DNA of 34,944 nucleotides, taken from Rhodobacterales bacterium (GTDB lineage Bacteria > Pseudomonadota > Alphaproteobacteria > Rhodobacterales > Rhodobacteraceae). A model generated the notes under the pieces. The model worked only from the letters and a program-made list of their open reading frames with translations, had not been told where the DNA came from and made no database searches. The DNA lies in the NCBI GenBank assembly GCA_003228875.1, contig QIGK01000055.1, positions 1-34,944 of the forward strand, read 5' to 3'. Below, in pieces: positions 30,528 through 34,944 of the stretch (position 1 is the first letter of the stretch; the number at the start of each line of letters is the position of its first letter). A program made the translations under genes and the position numbers.

Positions 30528-31709
30528 TTATTCTTTGTCCATTGGTTTTTCGTTTTTACCTAAAAAATCTATAATTCTGTCCAGCCCATCTTCCAGAATT
30601 TGCTCGTCCAGAGCAAAATTGATCCGCACCATGCCGCGCAAATCCTCCCCGAATGCTTGAGCATCCAATACTGAAACCTTTGTTTGTTCAAAAAGCGCGC
30701 GAACAAATGTTTTGCTGTCCATGCCGGTTTGTTCAACACAGAGCAAGATAAACATACCTGATTGCGGGTGCAGAAACTTGACGTTTGGTAGGGCGGACAG
30801 TTTTTTTAACGCAATGTCGCGACGCTTTTGGTAAAGCTGTCTGGTTTTGGAAGTATCCAGTTGCAAAGCCACAATCGCTGCTTCTTGAATGAACCCGGGC
30901 AAGCCATAGGTCACGTTAAGACAAAACGCTGCAGCCTTGCTTGAAAATATTTCAGGGCCTATGGCCCAGCCCGCTCTCCAACCAGTCATGCTGTGGGATT
31001 TGGAAAGGCTTCCGATTGTGATGCAACGGTTTTGCATGTCGGGCAACGTCGCGATGGATAGATGCTCGCCTTCAAAAATCAGTTCGCTGTAAACTTCATC
31101 GGCGACAACCCACAGATCATGGCGAATGGCGACATCTGCTATTTTTTCAAGGGTTTTTTGGTCAAATACAACCCCGGTCGGGTTGACTGGCGTTGCAAAG
31201 AAAATAGCTTTTGTGCGGTTTGTGACCAGCGATTCCAACTTGGCGACATCGGGCAGAAAACCGTTTTCGCGCGGGCATTGCAAACATACGATCTTTGCGC
31301 CTGTGGCTGAAAGCGTTGCGCCATAAGTGGCATACATCGGGTCAGCCACAATTACTTCATCACCCGGATCAAGCAGCAGGCTTGCCGCCATGAACAATGC
31401 GTTTTGTGTGCCTGCGGTAATGGTGACGTTGCTTGGCGTAACATTTAGGCCAAAAAGCCTGTTTTGGCGATCTGCCACAGCGCTGCGCAATGCTTTTTTG
31501 CCCTCAACAGGCGAATAATGGGTATCACCGCGTTGCAAAGCGGAAATTGCGGCATTTACAACGATGGCAGGGGTGTCGACTTCGTTGTCGCCAACGCTCA
31601 TCACGACAACATCTTCGCTGCGTTCTTTTGCCAAAATGGCACGGGTGTGGGTCTCCCATACACTGGCACCAGTAAGCGAAATTCGTTCTGAAAAGGCTGA
31701 TAGCTTCAT
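30528..31709 (-). CDS. PLP-dependent aminotransferase class I, AruH (arginine:pyruvate transaminase)-like
   Basis: A 393-residue fold-type I aminotransferase. The residue pattern is close, from memory, to Pseudomonas AruH: SVGDNEVDTPAIVVNAAISA, ALQRGDTHYSPVEGKKALR, VADPMYATYGATL, VADEVYSELIFEGEHLS, and the Schiff-base Lys237 in GSLSKSHSMTGWRAGW. The start is placed at MKLSAFSERI (31709); the frame runs a further 34 codons upstream but that part shows no similarity. A role in arginine catabolism is possible, but no other aru gene is present, so substrate identity is uncertain. Confidence 0.82.
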   Translation of the reverse strand: MKLSAFSERISLTGASVWETHTRAILAKERSEDVVVMSVGDNEVDTPAIVVNAAISALQRGDTHYSPVEGKKALRSAVADRQNRLFGLNVTPSNVTITAGTQNALFMAASLLLDPGDEVIVADPMYATYGATLSATGAKIVCLQCPRENGFLPDVAKLESLVTNRTKAIFFATPVNPTGVVFDQKTLEKIADVAIRHDLWVVADEVYSELIFEGEHLSIATLPDMQNRCITIGSLSKSHSMTGWRAGWAIGPEIFSSKAAAFCLNVTYGLPGFIQEAAIVALQLDTSKTRQLYQKRRDIALKKLSALPNVKFLHPQSGMFILLCVEQTGMDSKTFVRALFEQTKVSVLDAQAFGEDLRGMVRINFALDEQILEDGLDRIIDFLGKNEKPMDKE

Positions 31710-31869
31710 CGCGGGTCTTTCATTGACAAATCGGCTGTTGCGCGCGGTTTGGACGTTAATGGTGTTGAGTGATTGCGTAACAGTTCGGACCTTTTGTGTT
31801 TCTGGCGGCACTGGTTGTTGGTATGACTGTTACCCCAAGGATTTTCCGCTGGCTATAACGCACTTGCAT

Positions 31870-31913
31870 AATCGGGTTTTGCATGCAAAATAGGTGCCAT
31901 GAGACACCCGATT
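31870..31913. promoter_or_regulatory. Nested inverted repeat and palindrome ahead of the cysS leader
   Basis: AATCGGGT (31870-31877) pairs with ACCCGATT (31906-31913), eight of eight bases. Between them lies the perfect 14-bp palindrome TTTTGCATGCAAAA (31877-31890) and the candidate ribosome binding site and start of the Cys-rich leader. In the 320-nt gap between the aminotransferase and cysS this is the strongest structure. It could be an operator for the divergent genes, an RNA hairpin that masks the leader start, or both. A TATAAC at 31854-31859 is a possible -10 element. Confidence 0.55.
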
Positions 31914-31943
31914 TGTATTTGTGATATTTGCATTATCTGCTGA
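31899..31943 (+). CDS. Candidate Cys-rich leader peptide (MRHPICICDICIIC) upstream of cysS
   Basis: A 14-codon frame, ATG to TGA, encodes MRHPICICDICIIC: Cys at positions 6, 8, 11 and 14, that is four of the last nine codons. AGGTG lies just upstream of the ATG. It ends 86 bases before cysS on the same strand. Enrichment for the amino acid that the next gene's product charges onto tRNA is the hallmark of attenuation by a leader peptide, in which the ribosome stalls at Cys codons when Cys-tRNA is scarce. This is inferred from sequence; the stretch is T-rich, which raises the chance of TGT/TGC codons. Confidence 0.5.
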   Translation: MRHPICICDICIIC

Positions 31944-32008
31944 CATTATGTCTGCGGCGGGTTCTTTTTATTTCCAATTCTTTGATGAAATGTTAGGCCC
32001 GTCGCGGG
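31939..32008 (+). promoter_or_regulatory. Candidate attenuator hairpins between the leader and cysS
   Basis: Three pairings compete. (1) GC-T-GACA (31939-31945) with TGTC-T-GC (31949-31955) around TTA; its left arm contains the last Cys codon and stop of the leader. (2) GCGGCGGG (31954-31961) with CCCGTCGC (31998-32005), seven Watson-Crick pairs and one G-U. (3) CCCG (31998-32001) with CGGG (32005-32008) around TCG. ACCCG (31906-31910) in the leader could also pair with CGGGT (31958-31962). No clean T run follows any stem, so translation control of cysS is as likely as transcription termination. Confidence 0.35.
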
Positions 32009-32029
32009 AAACCTGCGTTTGGACAACTG

Positions 32030-33484
32030 ATGACTGAAATCAAGCTATATAATACCAAGATCCGCCGTAAAGAGGTATTTGCGCCGATTGATCCTGACAA
32101 TGTGCGCATGTATGTTTGTGGGCCAACGGTGTATGATCGGGCGCATATTGGCAATGCCCGCCCCGTGGTGGTGTTTGATGTATTGTTTCGGTTGTTGCGG
32201 CACAAATATGGGCATGACAACGTAAACTATGTGCGTAATTTTACCGATGTTGATGATAAAATTAACGCCAAAGCGGCTGAAACAGGGCGTGATATTCGCG
32301 ATATTACCGATGAAACCATCGGTTGGTATCATGAGGATATGGACGCGCTGGGGGCGCTGCGCCCTGTGCATGAGCCTCGTGCCACGGAATATATTGAGCA
32401 GATGGTCACGATGATTGAGAGGTTGGTTGCCAACGGTCATGCTTATACGGCTGAGGGGCATGTGCTGTTTGATGTGAATTCTTACGAGGCTTATGGTGCG
32501 TTGTCGGGCCGCAAGCTGGAAGATATGCGGGCTGGTGAGCGGGTGGAAGTTGCCGATTACAAACGTGATCCGTTGGATTTTGTTTTGTGGAAGCCCTCCA
32601 GCGGCGATCAACCGGGCTGGGAAAGCCCATGGGGGTTTGGTCGTCCGGGTTGGCATATTGAATGTTCGGCCATGGCGCTGGAATTATTGGGGGAAAGCTT
32701 TGATATTCATGGCGGTGGGCTTGATTTGCAATTCCCGCATCATGAAAACGAGATTGCGCAGAGTTGCTGTGCCAATCCTTCGGGGGAGTTTGCAAATTAC
32801 TGGCTGCATAATGAAATGTTGCAGGTTGAGGGTAAGAAGATGTCCAAAAGCTTGGGTAATTTCTTTACGGTGCGGGATTTGTTGGATCAGGGCGTGCCGG
32901 GGGAAGTAATAAGGTTTGTTTTGTTGAGCACGCATTATCGGTCGCCGATGGACTGGACGGAGAAGAAAGTTCGCGAGGCAACAGCGACATTGCGCAAGTG
33001 GCGCGGAATGACCAAGGGCATTGAGCCCTCGGCCAATCCGGCATCGACAGTGGTCGATGCGCTGGCCGATGATCTGAATACAGCCGGTGCGATTGCGGAG
33101 ATGCATAAGTTGGCAACCGATGGTGATGTGGCGGGACTTAAGGCATCAGCGGCTCTGCTAGGACTGTTGGGCAATACGATGGGGGTGTTAGTAAGTGCTG
33201 CCATCTCCAGTCAACCTATTTGGCCATCTGCGTTTGCAAATGTTGCGCCGTTGAATGCATTTTGGGTTGATGGAAAATCGAGTCTATCAAGTAAAGAGAT
33301 TGACCGTATTGATTATTGGATTCGTGCAAGAAGCGATGCCAAAAGTCGCCGTGACTTTGAAGAAGCTGATCGTATCCGTGAAGCTTTATTAGCCGCAGGT
33401 GTGAGTTTGCAAGACTCTTTTTTGGAGACCAATTACGAGGTTGAAGGTGTGTTTGATCCGTCTAAGCTGGAGGCATTGAAATGA
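32030..33484 (+). CDS. cysS: Cysteinyl-tRNA synthetase
   Basis: CysS charges tRNA-Cys with cysteine. The 484-residue class I enzyme shows the HIGH motif as HIGN at residues 39-42, the zinc ligand Cys30 in [10 protein letters not shown], the remaining zinc site in WHIECSAMA and HHENEIAQS, and KMSKS at 270-274. The C-terminal helical DALRD-type anticodon region ends [20 protein letters not shown]. The ATG at 32030 is used, with a weak GGA seven bases upstream. The stop codon overlaps the ATG of a mini-ORF (ATGA). A Cys-rich leader precedes the gene. Confidence 0.97.
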
Positions 33485-33639
33485 CCGATCAATTATTTGA
33501 GGCCTGCGCCGTCAAGGGAGGGCTGCCGGGCAAAGGGGTTGTTATAATGGTGGGGTGTAGGGTGCGTGGTTTCCACGCACCGATTCCGCGTTTGGCCAAC
33601 GGTGCGTGGGGACCACGCACCCTACGGGTGTTGTTATGA
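33481..33639 (+). CDS. Mini-ORF linking cysS and cimA, containing a palindrome pair
   Basis: A 52-residue frame begins at an ATG that overlaps the cysS stop (ATGA) and has GGAGG seven bases upstream, an excellent ribosome binding site. It opens [20 protein letters not shown] and continues straight through both palindromes to a TGA at 33637 that overlaps the cimA ATG (ATGA). The second half is an artefact-like reading of repeat DNA ([20 protein letters not shown]). It resembles no family. It may be a relic or a spacer kept open because it passes ribosomes from cysS to cimA. Confidence 0.4.
33556..33629. repeat. Inverted pair of palindromic repeats (REPIN-like)
   Basis: Copy one is GGTGCGTGG-TTT-CCACGCACC (33561-33581); copy two is GGTGCGTGG-GGA-CCACGCACC (33601-33621). 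Both have perfect nine-base arms. GTAGGG just left of the first (33557-33562) mirrors CCCTAC right of the second (33620-33625), so the two units are in inverted orientation around a 19-base spacer, forming one long hairpin. This is the layout of REP pairs mobilised by RAYT transposases in other bacteria. No RAYT gene is in the window. Confidence 0.75.
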
Positions 33640-34944
33640 CCGAACGCCTCTATCTCTACGACACCACCCTGCGGGATGGCCAACAAACCCAAGGGGTTGA
33701 TTTCTCGGCTGAGGATAAAACCCGCATTGCCCATGCGCTGGATGATCTCGGCATTGATTATGTTGAGGGCGGCTGGCCGGGGGCTAACCCGACCGATAGC
33801 GATTTTTTTGACGCGCCGCCCAAGCTGAAAAACGCCACCTTCACGGCTTTTGGCATGACCAAACGCGCGGGGCGCTCGGCTGCGAATTGTGATGTTTTGG
33901 CGGGGGTGGTGAATGCGGGCACATCGGCGGTTTGTCTGGTTGGCAAAACCCATGATTTTCATGTGACCACTGCGCTTAACATGCCGCTGGCGGATAATGT
34001 CGCTGTTATTCGCGATTCGATTGAACATCTGGTCAGCCTCGGGCGCGAGGCTTTGTTTGATGCGGAGCATTTCTTTGACGGATTTCGCGCCAATCCTGAA
34101 TACGCGTTGGAATGTATCATAGCGGCTTACACAGCCGGTGCGCGCTGGATGGTGCTTTGTGATACCAATGGTGGTGTTCTGCCCGACGATATTCGCAGCG
34201 GTGTCAAAGCGGCGATCAAGGCGGGTATTCCGGGTGATCATCTGGGCATTCATACCCATAATGACACCGAACACGCGGTGGCCAATTCCTTGGCGGCGGT
34301 GGACGCAGGGGCGCGGCAGGTGCAAGGCACCTTGAATGGTTTGGGAGAACGCTGCGGCAATGCCAATCTGGTGGCGCTGATCCCGACCTTAAAGCTGAAA
34401 GAACCCTATGCCAGCCGGTTTGACATCGGGGTTAGTGACATTTCCGGTCTGACAAAATTATCGCGTTTGCTGGACGATATTTTGAACCGCGTGCCTAACG
34501 CAACGGCGGCTTATGTGGGGGCGTCAGCTTTTGTGCATAAGGCAGGCTTGCATGCCAGTGCCATTTTGAAAGACCCAACCACCTATGAACATGTGCCACC
34601 CGAATCTGTTGGCAATGCGCGACTGGTGCCGATGTCAAATCAAGCGGGGCAAAGCAATTTGCGGGCGCGGCTGGCGGATGCGGGGATTGCCGTGGAAAAG
34701 GATGACCCGAGGCTGAGCGATATTCTTACCCAAGTAAAAACCCGCGAGGATAAGGGTTATGCCTATGATAGTGCGCAGGCCAGTTTTGAGCTGATGGCGC
34801 GGGATATTTTGGGGCAGTTACCGCAGTTTTTCGAGGTTAAGCGATATCGTGTAACGGTTGAGCGGCGCAAAAACAAAAGCAACAAAGTGGTGACATTGTC
34901 CGAAGCTGTGGTGGCGGTAAAAGTCGATGGCAAAAAGGTTTTGT
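33636..34944 (+). CDS. cimA: (R)-citramalate synthase, truncated by the window end
   Basis: A LeuA/CimA-family enzyme joining pyruvate and acetyl-CoA to citramalate, an entry to isoleucine synthesis that bypasses threonine. The window holds 436 codons of an expected 530 or so, open to the edge. The N-terminus YDTTLRDGQQTQGVDFS carries the catalytic Arg13-Asp14; metal-binding HTHND starts at His206; GLGERCGNANLVALIPTL and the SAFVHKAGLHASA loop follow. The two-domain TIGR00977 form is favoured over 2-isopropylmalate synthase. The ATG overlaps the mini-ORF stop, with GGGTG five bases upstream. Confidence 0.93.
   Translation, partial: MTERLYLYDTTLRDGQQTQGVDFSAEDKTRIAHALDDLGIDYVEGGWPGANPTDSDFFDAPPKLKNATFTAFGMTKRAGRSAANCDVLAGVVNAGTSAVCLVGKTHDFHVTTALNMPLADNVAVIRDSIEHLVSLGREALFDAEHFFDGFRANPEYALECIIAAYTAGARWMVLCDTNGGVLPDDIRSGVKAAIKAGIPGDHLGIHTHNDTEHAVANSLAAVDAGARQVQGTLNGLGERCGNANLVALIPTLKLKEPYASRFDIGVSDISGLTKLSRLLDDILNRVPNATAAYVGASAFVHKAGLHASAILKDPTTYEHVPPESVGNARLVPMSNQAGQSNLRARLADAGIAVEKDDPRLSDILTQVKTREDKGYAYDSAQASFELMARDILGQLPQFFEVKRYRVTVERRKNKSNKVVTLSEAVVAVKVDGKKVL

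Follow-up and report, generated by a model that had tools for sequence, protein, structure and literature searches.

Described relatives of the cysS leader

The closest described system is uORFC-8-2, a computational prediction from 2021 for which the available text of the article gives 145 examples, located exclusively before cysS of Rhodobacterales (PMC8632094). That text reports tandem cysteine codons, which typically occupy positions 14 and 15, describes two stems and a U-run, and proposes attenuation; the first stem holds the Cys codons, and the 3' U-run fits an intrinsic terminator (PMC8632094). An earlier note on the DNA analyzed here knew of no such leader for alphaproteobacterial cysS, a statement that these examples overturn. 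A second alphaproteobacterial case is trpL of S. meliloti, whose leaderless ORF is shown in the available parts of two reports (PMC10117765, PMC7298713). As described there, it resembles the leader reported here in having a 14-codon ORF, an RNA beginning at the AUG and an association with an amino-acid gene, and differs in having Trp codons, in preceding trpE and in having been shown experimentally, whereas the present leader is known from sequence.

Here we analyze the region upstream of cysS in a stretch of 34,944 nucleotides from a Rhodobacterales bacterium (contig QIGK01000055.1), referred to throughout as the window. Leaders with codons of two amino acids have a precedent in the thr attenuator of E. 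coli, in which a single leader carries codons for threonine and isoleucine, two amino acids that share one biosynthetic branch; the leader described here differs in joining the synthetase gene for one amino acid with a biosynthetic gene for another. Cys-rich attenuation peptides precede Cys-supply genes in the actinobacteria, and thus differ from the present leader in both gene and phylum; to our knowledge they have no isoleucine part. Among the matches listed from the open-licence literature, we saw neither an Ile-Cys leader nor a cysS-cimA attenuator described.

The window leader is like uORFC-8-2 in having a conserved, Cys-containing short ORF that starts with AUG and precedes cysS, and ribosome-mediated attenuation is proposed for both; its RNA pairings and U-rich tract may correspond to the stems and U-run of the motif. 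The closest named relatives of the window are Rhodobacteraceae. However, the Cys codons of the window ORF are its codons 6, 8, 11 and 14, with no adjacent pair, and because they are not in tandem we file it as a divergent relative of uORFC-8-2. The published positions 14 and 15 also disagree with the ATG used here, which places the tandem codons near codons 9–10. The available text on uORFC-8-2 names only Cys and cysS, whereas we find Ile codons, linkage to cimA and members in the Hyphomicrobiales, together with an Ile-only leader of cimA, a predicted leaderless start and a second promoter-like element; the isoleucine half thus appears to have been missed in the 2021 cysteine-only account, as far as its available text goes.

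A conserved short ORF precedes cysS

The leader ORF lies at coordinates 31899–31943 on the plus strand and runs from ATG to TGA, encoding 14 residues (MRHPICICDICIIC) with five Ile and four Cys codons; it is predicted to be leaderless. Translation bears out the earlier description of a frame with four Cys in its final nine codons, lying 86 nt upstream of cysS and on the same strand; the five isoleucines of the ORF went unmentioned there. The downstream gene (32030–33484, plus strand) is cysS, coding for cysteinyl-tRNA synthetase (TIGR00435, 466 bits, cutoff 340), and is followed by cimA (33636–34943, plus strand, truncated by the window end; TIGR00977, 481.7 bits, cutoff 450), coding for citramalate synthase, which leads to isoleucine. 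An Rfam search of 31600–32200 with E up to 5 gave no T-box and only a chance sR60 match under the cutoff, and the absence of a known RNA family above cutoff agrees with the earlier remark that T-box control is not expected in this group.

Taken by itself, the window ORF is only moderately unlikely as a chance occurrence: in dinucleotide shuffles of the upstream region an ORF with at least four Cys appeared in 13 of 2000, and one with at least two in 229 of 2000. We accept it as real because it is conserved across the family. Upstream regions were taken from the window and from 129 family genomes, one per genus, out of 145 with a cysS match; with L153 left out because it is cut short, 99 of the 129 regions contain an ATG ORF of 8–20 codons with at least two Cys that ends 55–145 nt before cysS. 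The same rule was passed by 3 of 129 regions on the reverse strand, and by a mean of 3.45 and a maximum of 8 of 129 in 20 shuffles. Start codon, frame and Cys codons are kept in the aligned Rhodobacterales regions, and the losses and frameshifts that the earlier note had named as counting against the leader are not the pattern found. Comparison therefore confirms the leader ORF as real and conserved, and with conservation extending over two orders, the shuffle counts leave a chance ORF in the spacer as a refuted and practically negligible explanation.

Of 27 named Rhodobacterales loci, 21 match model R1 strongly and 2 weakly; ten that had no part in its training have E values of 3.7e-17 or lower. 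Within the genome that contains the window, only the leader matches R1 better than E 0.7, the second match standing at E 0.73. The ORF criteria used Cys, and R1 and its Hyphomicrobiales counterpart R2 were trained on such ORFs, so that Cys is favored in both. Weak R1 matches (10 genomes, E 9e-4 to 0.009) and the weak R2 matches at G180, G298 and G356 were not counted as leaders; that at G356 looks like chance on inspection. The ORF MDWICCLCRA at L087, which fits the ORF rule, was likewise counted as a non-leader, having neither cimA nor an R1 match.

Related leaders are present in the Hyphomicrobiales, where 42 of the 92 upstream regions contain an ORF with at least two Cys, compared with 6 on the reverse strand and a mean of 2.6 (maximum 6) in shuffles. 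With at least one Cys required, the count is 71 of 92, compared with 21 on the reverse strand and 14.6 in shuffles. R2 matches 69 of 90 Hyphomicrobiales loci, many of them in the R2 alignment, and 12 of 24 named alphaproteobacterial loci; the matches include Bradyrhizobium, Ensifer, Devosia and Cohaesibacter, all outside that alignment. Because R1 also matches the Devosia leader (1.8e-8), the Rhodobacterales and Hyphomicrobiales leaders are probably a single family on sequence grounds.

Isoleucine and cysteine codons dominate the leader

We compiled 136 Rhodobacterales leader ORFs from 156 loci, admitting only those that had one or more Cys and whose ending was Cys/Ile-like. Ile makes up 29.6% and Cys 22.0% of their codons, compared with 5.3% and 2.9% in mononucleotide shuffles of the same ORFs and with 0.6% and 0.8–1.3% in the other two frames. 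In 52 Hyphomicrobiales leader ORFs the values are 26.4% and 10.7%, and Ile is the most frequent residue in both orders. Ile or Cys occupies positions -3, -4 and -5 relative to the stop in 95, 96 and 88% of the Rhodobacterales leaders. All 85 readable ORFs at R1 matches contain Ile and 84 contain Cys; the sole Cys-free ORF, at L199 (MNAPNRIIGIIIGG), has five Ile. At R2 matches both residues are present in 63 of 65 ORFs, the remaining two being false ATGs.

The earlier note proposed that the leader senses Cys-tRNA on behalf of cysS. The retention of Cys codons in 84 of the 85 ORFs speaks for that part, but sensing of Cys-tRNA alone would account for only half of the ORF, because the Ile codons are equally conserved and the operon runs on into cimA; overall, the earlier interpretation is partly supported. 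A cysteine-only attenuator, along the lines of the earlier note and of PMC8632094, would have stalling at Cys codons block an intrinsic terminator, with Ile codons as mere filler and cimA simply the next gene. It draws on the same Cys retention and on the adjacent Cys pair present in 87 of the 136 leaders, which in 79 of those 87 sits 5–6 codons before the end. Against it stand the prevalence of Ile and the lack of any Ile-free leader among the 136 ORFs, a set whose selection filter partly favored Cys and Ile, and we regard it as unlikely for these and further reasons given below.

The composition also bears on whether the peptide itself acts, rather than its translation, as a small hydrophobic, metal-binding or trans-acting product. 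The peTrpL peptide of S. meliloti, also of 14 residues and from a leaderless ORF, works in trans according to the available text (PMC7298713), and lends this idea a precedent. A merely hydrophobic peptide is unlikely, however, because Leu (1.6%), Val (0.9%) and Phe (0.8%) are nearly absent from the 136 ORFs and do not substitute for Ile; moreover, the order and number of Ile and Cys vary freely, and the ORF is bound to its own RNA pairings and operon. An active peptide is thus very unlikely.

Could the RNA structure alone matter, the ORF being a by-product of conserved nucleotides? Third positions are indeed conserved, with AUU in 119 leaders against AUC in 7 at position -3, and a last codon NGC that is part of the paired segment B described below. 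But codon gaps in alignment A2 come in multiples of three, AUU or AUC interchanges with UGC or UGU at positions -4 to -6 with several base changes per swap, and the AUG and frame are retained far above the controls, making a structure-only element highly improbable.

The leader follows the cysS-cimA operon

Among family genomes with cimA beside cysS, R1 matches in 111 of 121, or 113 of 121 if two hits lacking a short ORF are included; it matches in none of the four (G011, G047, G105 and G045) in which cimA is missing or lies away from cysS. The Fisher p of 1e-4 (111/10 versus 0/4) is overstated, since the genomes are related and p values are therefore too small. Of 22 named Rhodobacterales loci labelled as having a leader, 20 have cimA after cysS in the same orientation and two lie on contigs that end before that point; cimA is also present at 2 of 5 loci lacking the label. 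Four leader loci (L101, L147, L164 and L173) were left out of the comparison across family genomes, three of them having no contig room on the cysS side, with cimA missing or on another contig. In the Hyphomicrobiales, cimA was sought in 71 genomes from the 90 loci, chosen by hand rather than at random; R2 matches in 61 of the 68 with cimA and in none of the three without, and cimA is on the same contig and strand in 67 of 68, 35–3263 nt downstream. The absence of leaders where cysS stands without cimA, in four family and three Hyphomicrobiales genomes, argues further against a cysteine-only attenuator.

The reverse does not hold: cimA can stand without a leader, since it does so at those 2 of 5 unlabelled loci and since no leader match is found in 8 of 121 operons with adjacent cimA or in 7 of 68 Hyphomicrobiales. 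At L113, L133, L171, L182, L200, L201 and L210, cysS and cimA are adjacent with neither an R1 match nor a rule-passing ORF, and these are possible leader losses.

Two genomes of a single genus, G157 and G291, have an R2 match directly ahead of cimA, with cysS elsewhere in the genome and no match at cysS. Their leader ORFs, MNIINAIITKGLIISG and MNIINAIIIKGLIISG (MNIINAII[TI]KGLIISG), contain six and seven Ile, respectively, and no Cys. With the Cys-free ORF at L199, these Ile-only leaders are difficult to accommodate if Cys codons are the signal and Ile codons are filler. The architecture of the two cimA leaders (L333, 263–380; L334, 2718–2586) is like that of the cysS leaders. In G045, where cysS and cimA are apart, a leader at cimA was not seen.

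Promoter-like elements and a predicted leaderless start

A sigma-70-like pair scoring at least 8 has its -10 element ending 6 nt before the ATG in 51 and 7 nt before it in 48 of the 136 Rhodobacterales leaders, compared with 0–8 at other offsets; in the Hyphomicrobiales the corresponding counts are 7 and 25 of 52, with 0–5 elsewhere. In 70 of the 136 Rhodobacterales leaders, a TTGNC starts at position -36 or -35 relative to the ATG. In the window, the putative upstream promoter P1 has a -35-like TTGCAT (31864–31869, plus strand), whose position fits the family and whose own match is weak (3 of 6), and a -10-like element at 31886–31892 on the plus strand, read as CAAAAT with a 16-nt spacer or AAAATA with a 17-nt spacer, 6–7 nt before the ATG. 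The window P1 elements are weak, and a scan of the window with a strict consensus found no promoter.

Because the promoter signature peaks at a fixed distance before the ATG, the ORF is predicted to be leaderless, with transcription probably starting at the leader ATG. The predicted start is thus not downstream of 31900, the alternative that the earlier note had named as adverse. The AGGTG cited there as a ribosome-binding site is present at 31892–31896, overlapping the interval that separates the predicted -10 element from the ATG; in a leaderless ORF it would not be needed, and it is probably unused as a Shine-Dalgarno sequence. An ORF resembling an aminotransferase by eye occupies 30528–31811 on the minus strand, and because it diverges from the leader, P1 falls in an intergenic region between divergent frames.

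A second promoter-like element, P2, lies between the leader and cysS, with a -35-like TTTCCA (31971–31976, plus strand; TTTYC in the family) and an extended -10-like TGTTAGGCC (31991–31999, plus strand) that overlaps segment D. Extended -10 elements are present in 72 of the 136 Rhodobacterales leaders, and in 46 of these 72 the spacing in TTTYC-N17-TGnTA is 17. In the window (31971–31999) and in Rhodobacterales cysS upstream regions, P2 has a G+C-rich stretch after its -10, and by eye the -10-like element is kept in L127, L183 and L194, all of which are without a leader ORF.

Two mutually exclusive RNA pairings

Three plus-strand segments are implicated in pairing. Segment B (31935–31945) comprises the last codons and the stop, segment C (GCGGCGGG, 31954–31961) can partner either B or D, and segment D (CCCGTCGC, 31998–32005) lies 24 nt before cysS; a U-rich tract (TTCTTTTTATTT, 31962–31973, plus strand) follows immediately after C. 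In the window B:C is a 10-pair hairpin (31935–31945 with 31953–31962) of -8.8 kcal/mol and the C:D duplex has -22.7 kcal/mol; the family medians are -10.1 kcal/mol for B:C (127 leaders) and -16.9 kcal/mol for C:D (126 leaders).

RNAalifold applied to 119 MAFFT-aligned leaders gave no structure, and the helices were therefore tested through anchored counts. For C:D we used the 113 of 136 leaders with GCGGG and [CT]CCGC cores. The outer pair, which adjoins the core, is formed in 83 of 113 (permutations, mean 46.9 and maximum 66), with G-C in 44 leaders and C-G in 37. The C+1 by D-1 pair lends weak support (91/113 versus 85.2; 10 of 5000), and four other flanking pairs showed no covariation in the 113 leaders. 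For B:C, 87 of 106 leaders have the base that follows the stop paired with its partner (permutations, mean 63.4 and maximum 76). Of the cells in alignment A3, 97.2% are paired for C:D and 99.6% for B:C, percentages biased upward since the sequences of A2 (53) and A3 (41) were chosen for their cores. These comparisons suggest that B:C and C:D are two covarying, mutually exclusive pairings with C common to both. Own C:D complementarity, scored free of alignment, exceeds cross-paired complementarity in only 96 of 136 leaders, a weak contrast because the GC core is common to the leaders, and folding of the window leader is not exceptional compared with shuffles (z -0.78; 46 of 200 equally good).

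The U-rich tract counts in favor of the cysteine-only attenuator. In the family, T frequency is 45–79% at 10 of the 11 positions from +4 to +14 after C (35% at +5), and in the window the B:C hairpin runs directly into TCTTTTTATTT; this window arrangement resembles an intrinsic terminator and suggests a role for B:C opposite to the one proposed below. As a terminator, however, B:C would be allowed to form by a ribosome stalled at early codons, which would be the wrong sign for relief of attenuation. A terminator scan found none on the plus strand of the window and one terminator-like site on the minus strand, and a U-run after D was not found, T being at most 21% at each of 22 positions. Nor does folding support C:D as a cover for the ribosome site of cysS, whose start has a mean unpaired value of 0.44 with C present and 0.38 without it (129 leaders).

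A proposed two-amino-acid attenuator

We consider it likely, from sequence comparison, that 31899–31943 is an Ile and Cys leader of the cysS-cimA operon, whatever the direction of its response. Comparison supplies the ORF and its frame, the Ile and Cys codons, the linkage to cimA, the promoter position and the covariation of B:C and C:D, and from these we infer stalling at the Ile and Cys codons. As in trp-type attenuators, there are codons for the amino acids of the operon (Ile and Cys, with cimA and cysS) and, as judged by comparison, covarying and mutually exclusive pairings that share segment C.

In the model that we propose, transcription would begin within about two bases of the ATG and ribosomes would load at the 5' end without a Shine-Dalgarno site. 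A shortage of charged tRNA-Ile, which CimA would relieve via isoleucine synthesis, would stall the ribosome at Ile codons, and a shortage of charged tRNA-Cys, the product of CysS, would stall it at Cys codons. Segment C would pair with B around the leader stop or with D before cysS, never with both. With the ribosome stalled, B would be accessible for pairing with C and the operon would be expressed; a ribosome that got as far as the stop would mask B, leaving C to pair with D and lowering expression. The output step may be transcription termination or another process. This trp-like polarity is drawn from the span of RNA that a ribosome covers, and we hold it about evenly balanced with its alternatives.

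On balance we favor, with some reserve, a broader reading in which the leader belongs as much to cimA as to cysS. It would be an attenuator of ancient origin in the alphaproteobacteria, monitoring Ile and Cys charging jointly through a leaderless ORF, one sensor adjusting a synthetase gene and the biosynthetic gene of a different amino acid; Ile would be the core signal and Cys codons would persist only as long as the operon includes cysS, the cimA-only case coming from one genus. This reading would correct the published cysteine-only account, and it predicts, in genera that include laboratory strains, a two-amino-acid sensor tying tRNA-Cys charging to isoleucine synthesis; the Hyphomicrobiales members widen the family beyond Rhodobacterales.

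A dispersed repeat between cysS and cimA

Between cysS and cimA the window contains a palindromic element, GTAGGGTGCGTGG...CCACGCACCCTAC, at coordinates 33557–33625. With at most one mismatch, GTAGGGTGCGTG has 56 copies in the genome compared with 10 for the reversed control, and the element is a dispersed repeat inside the operon.
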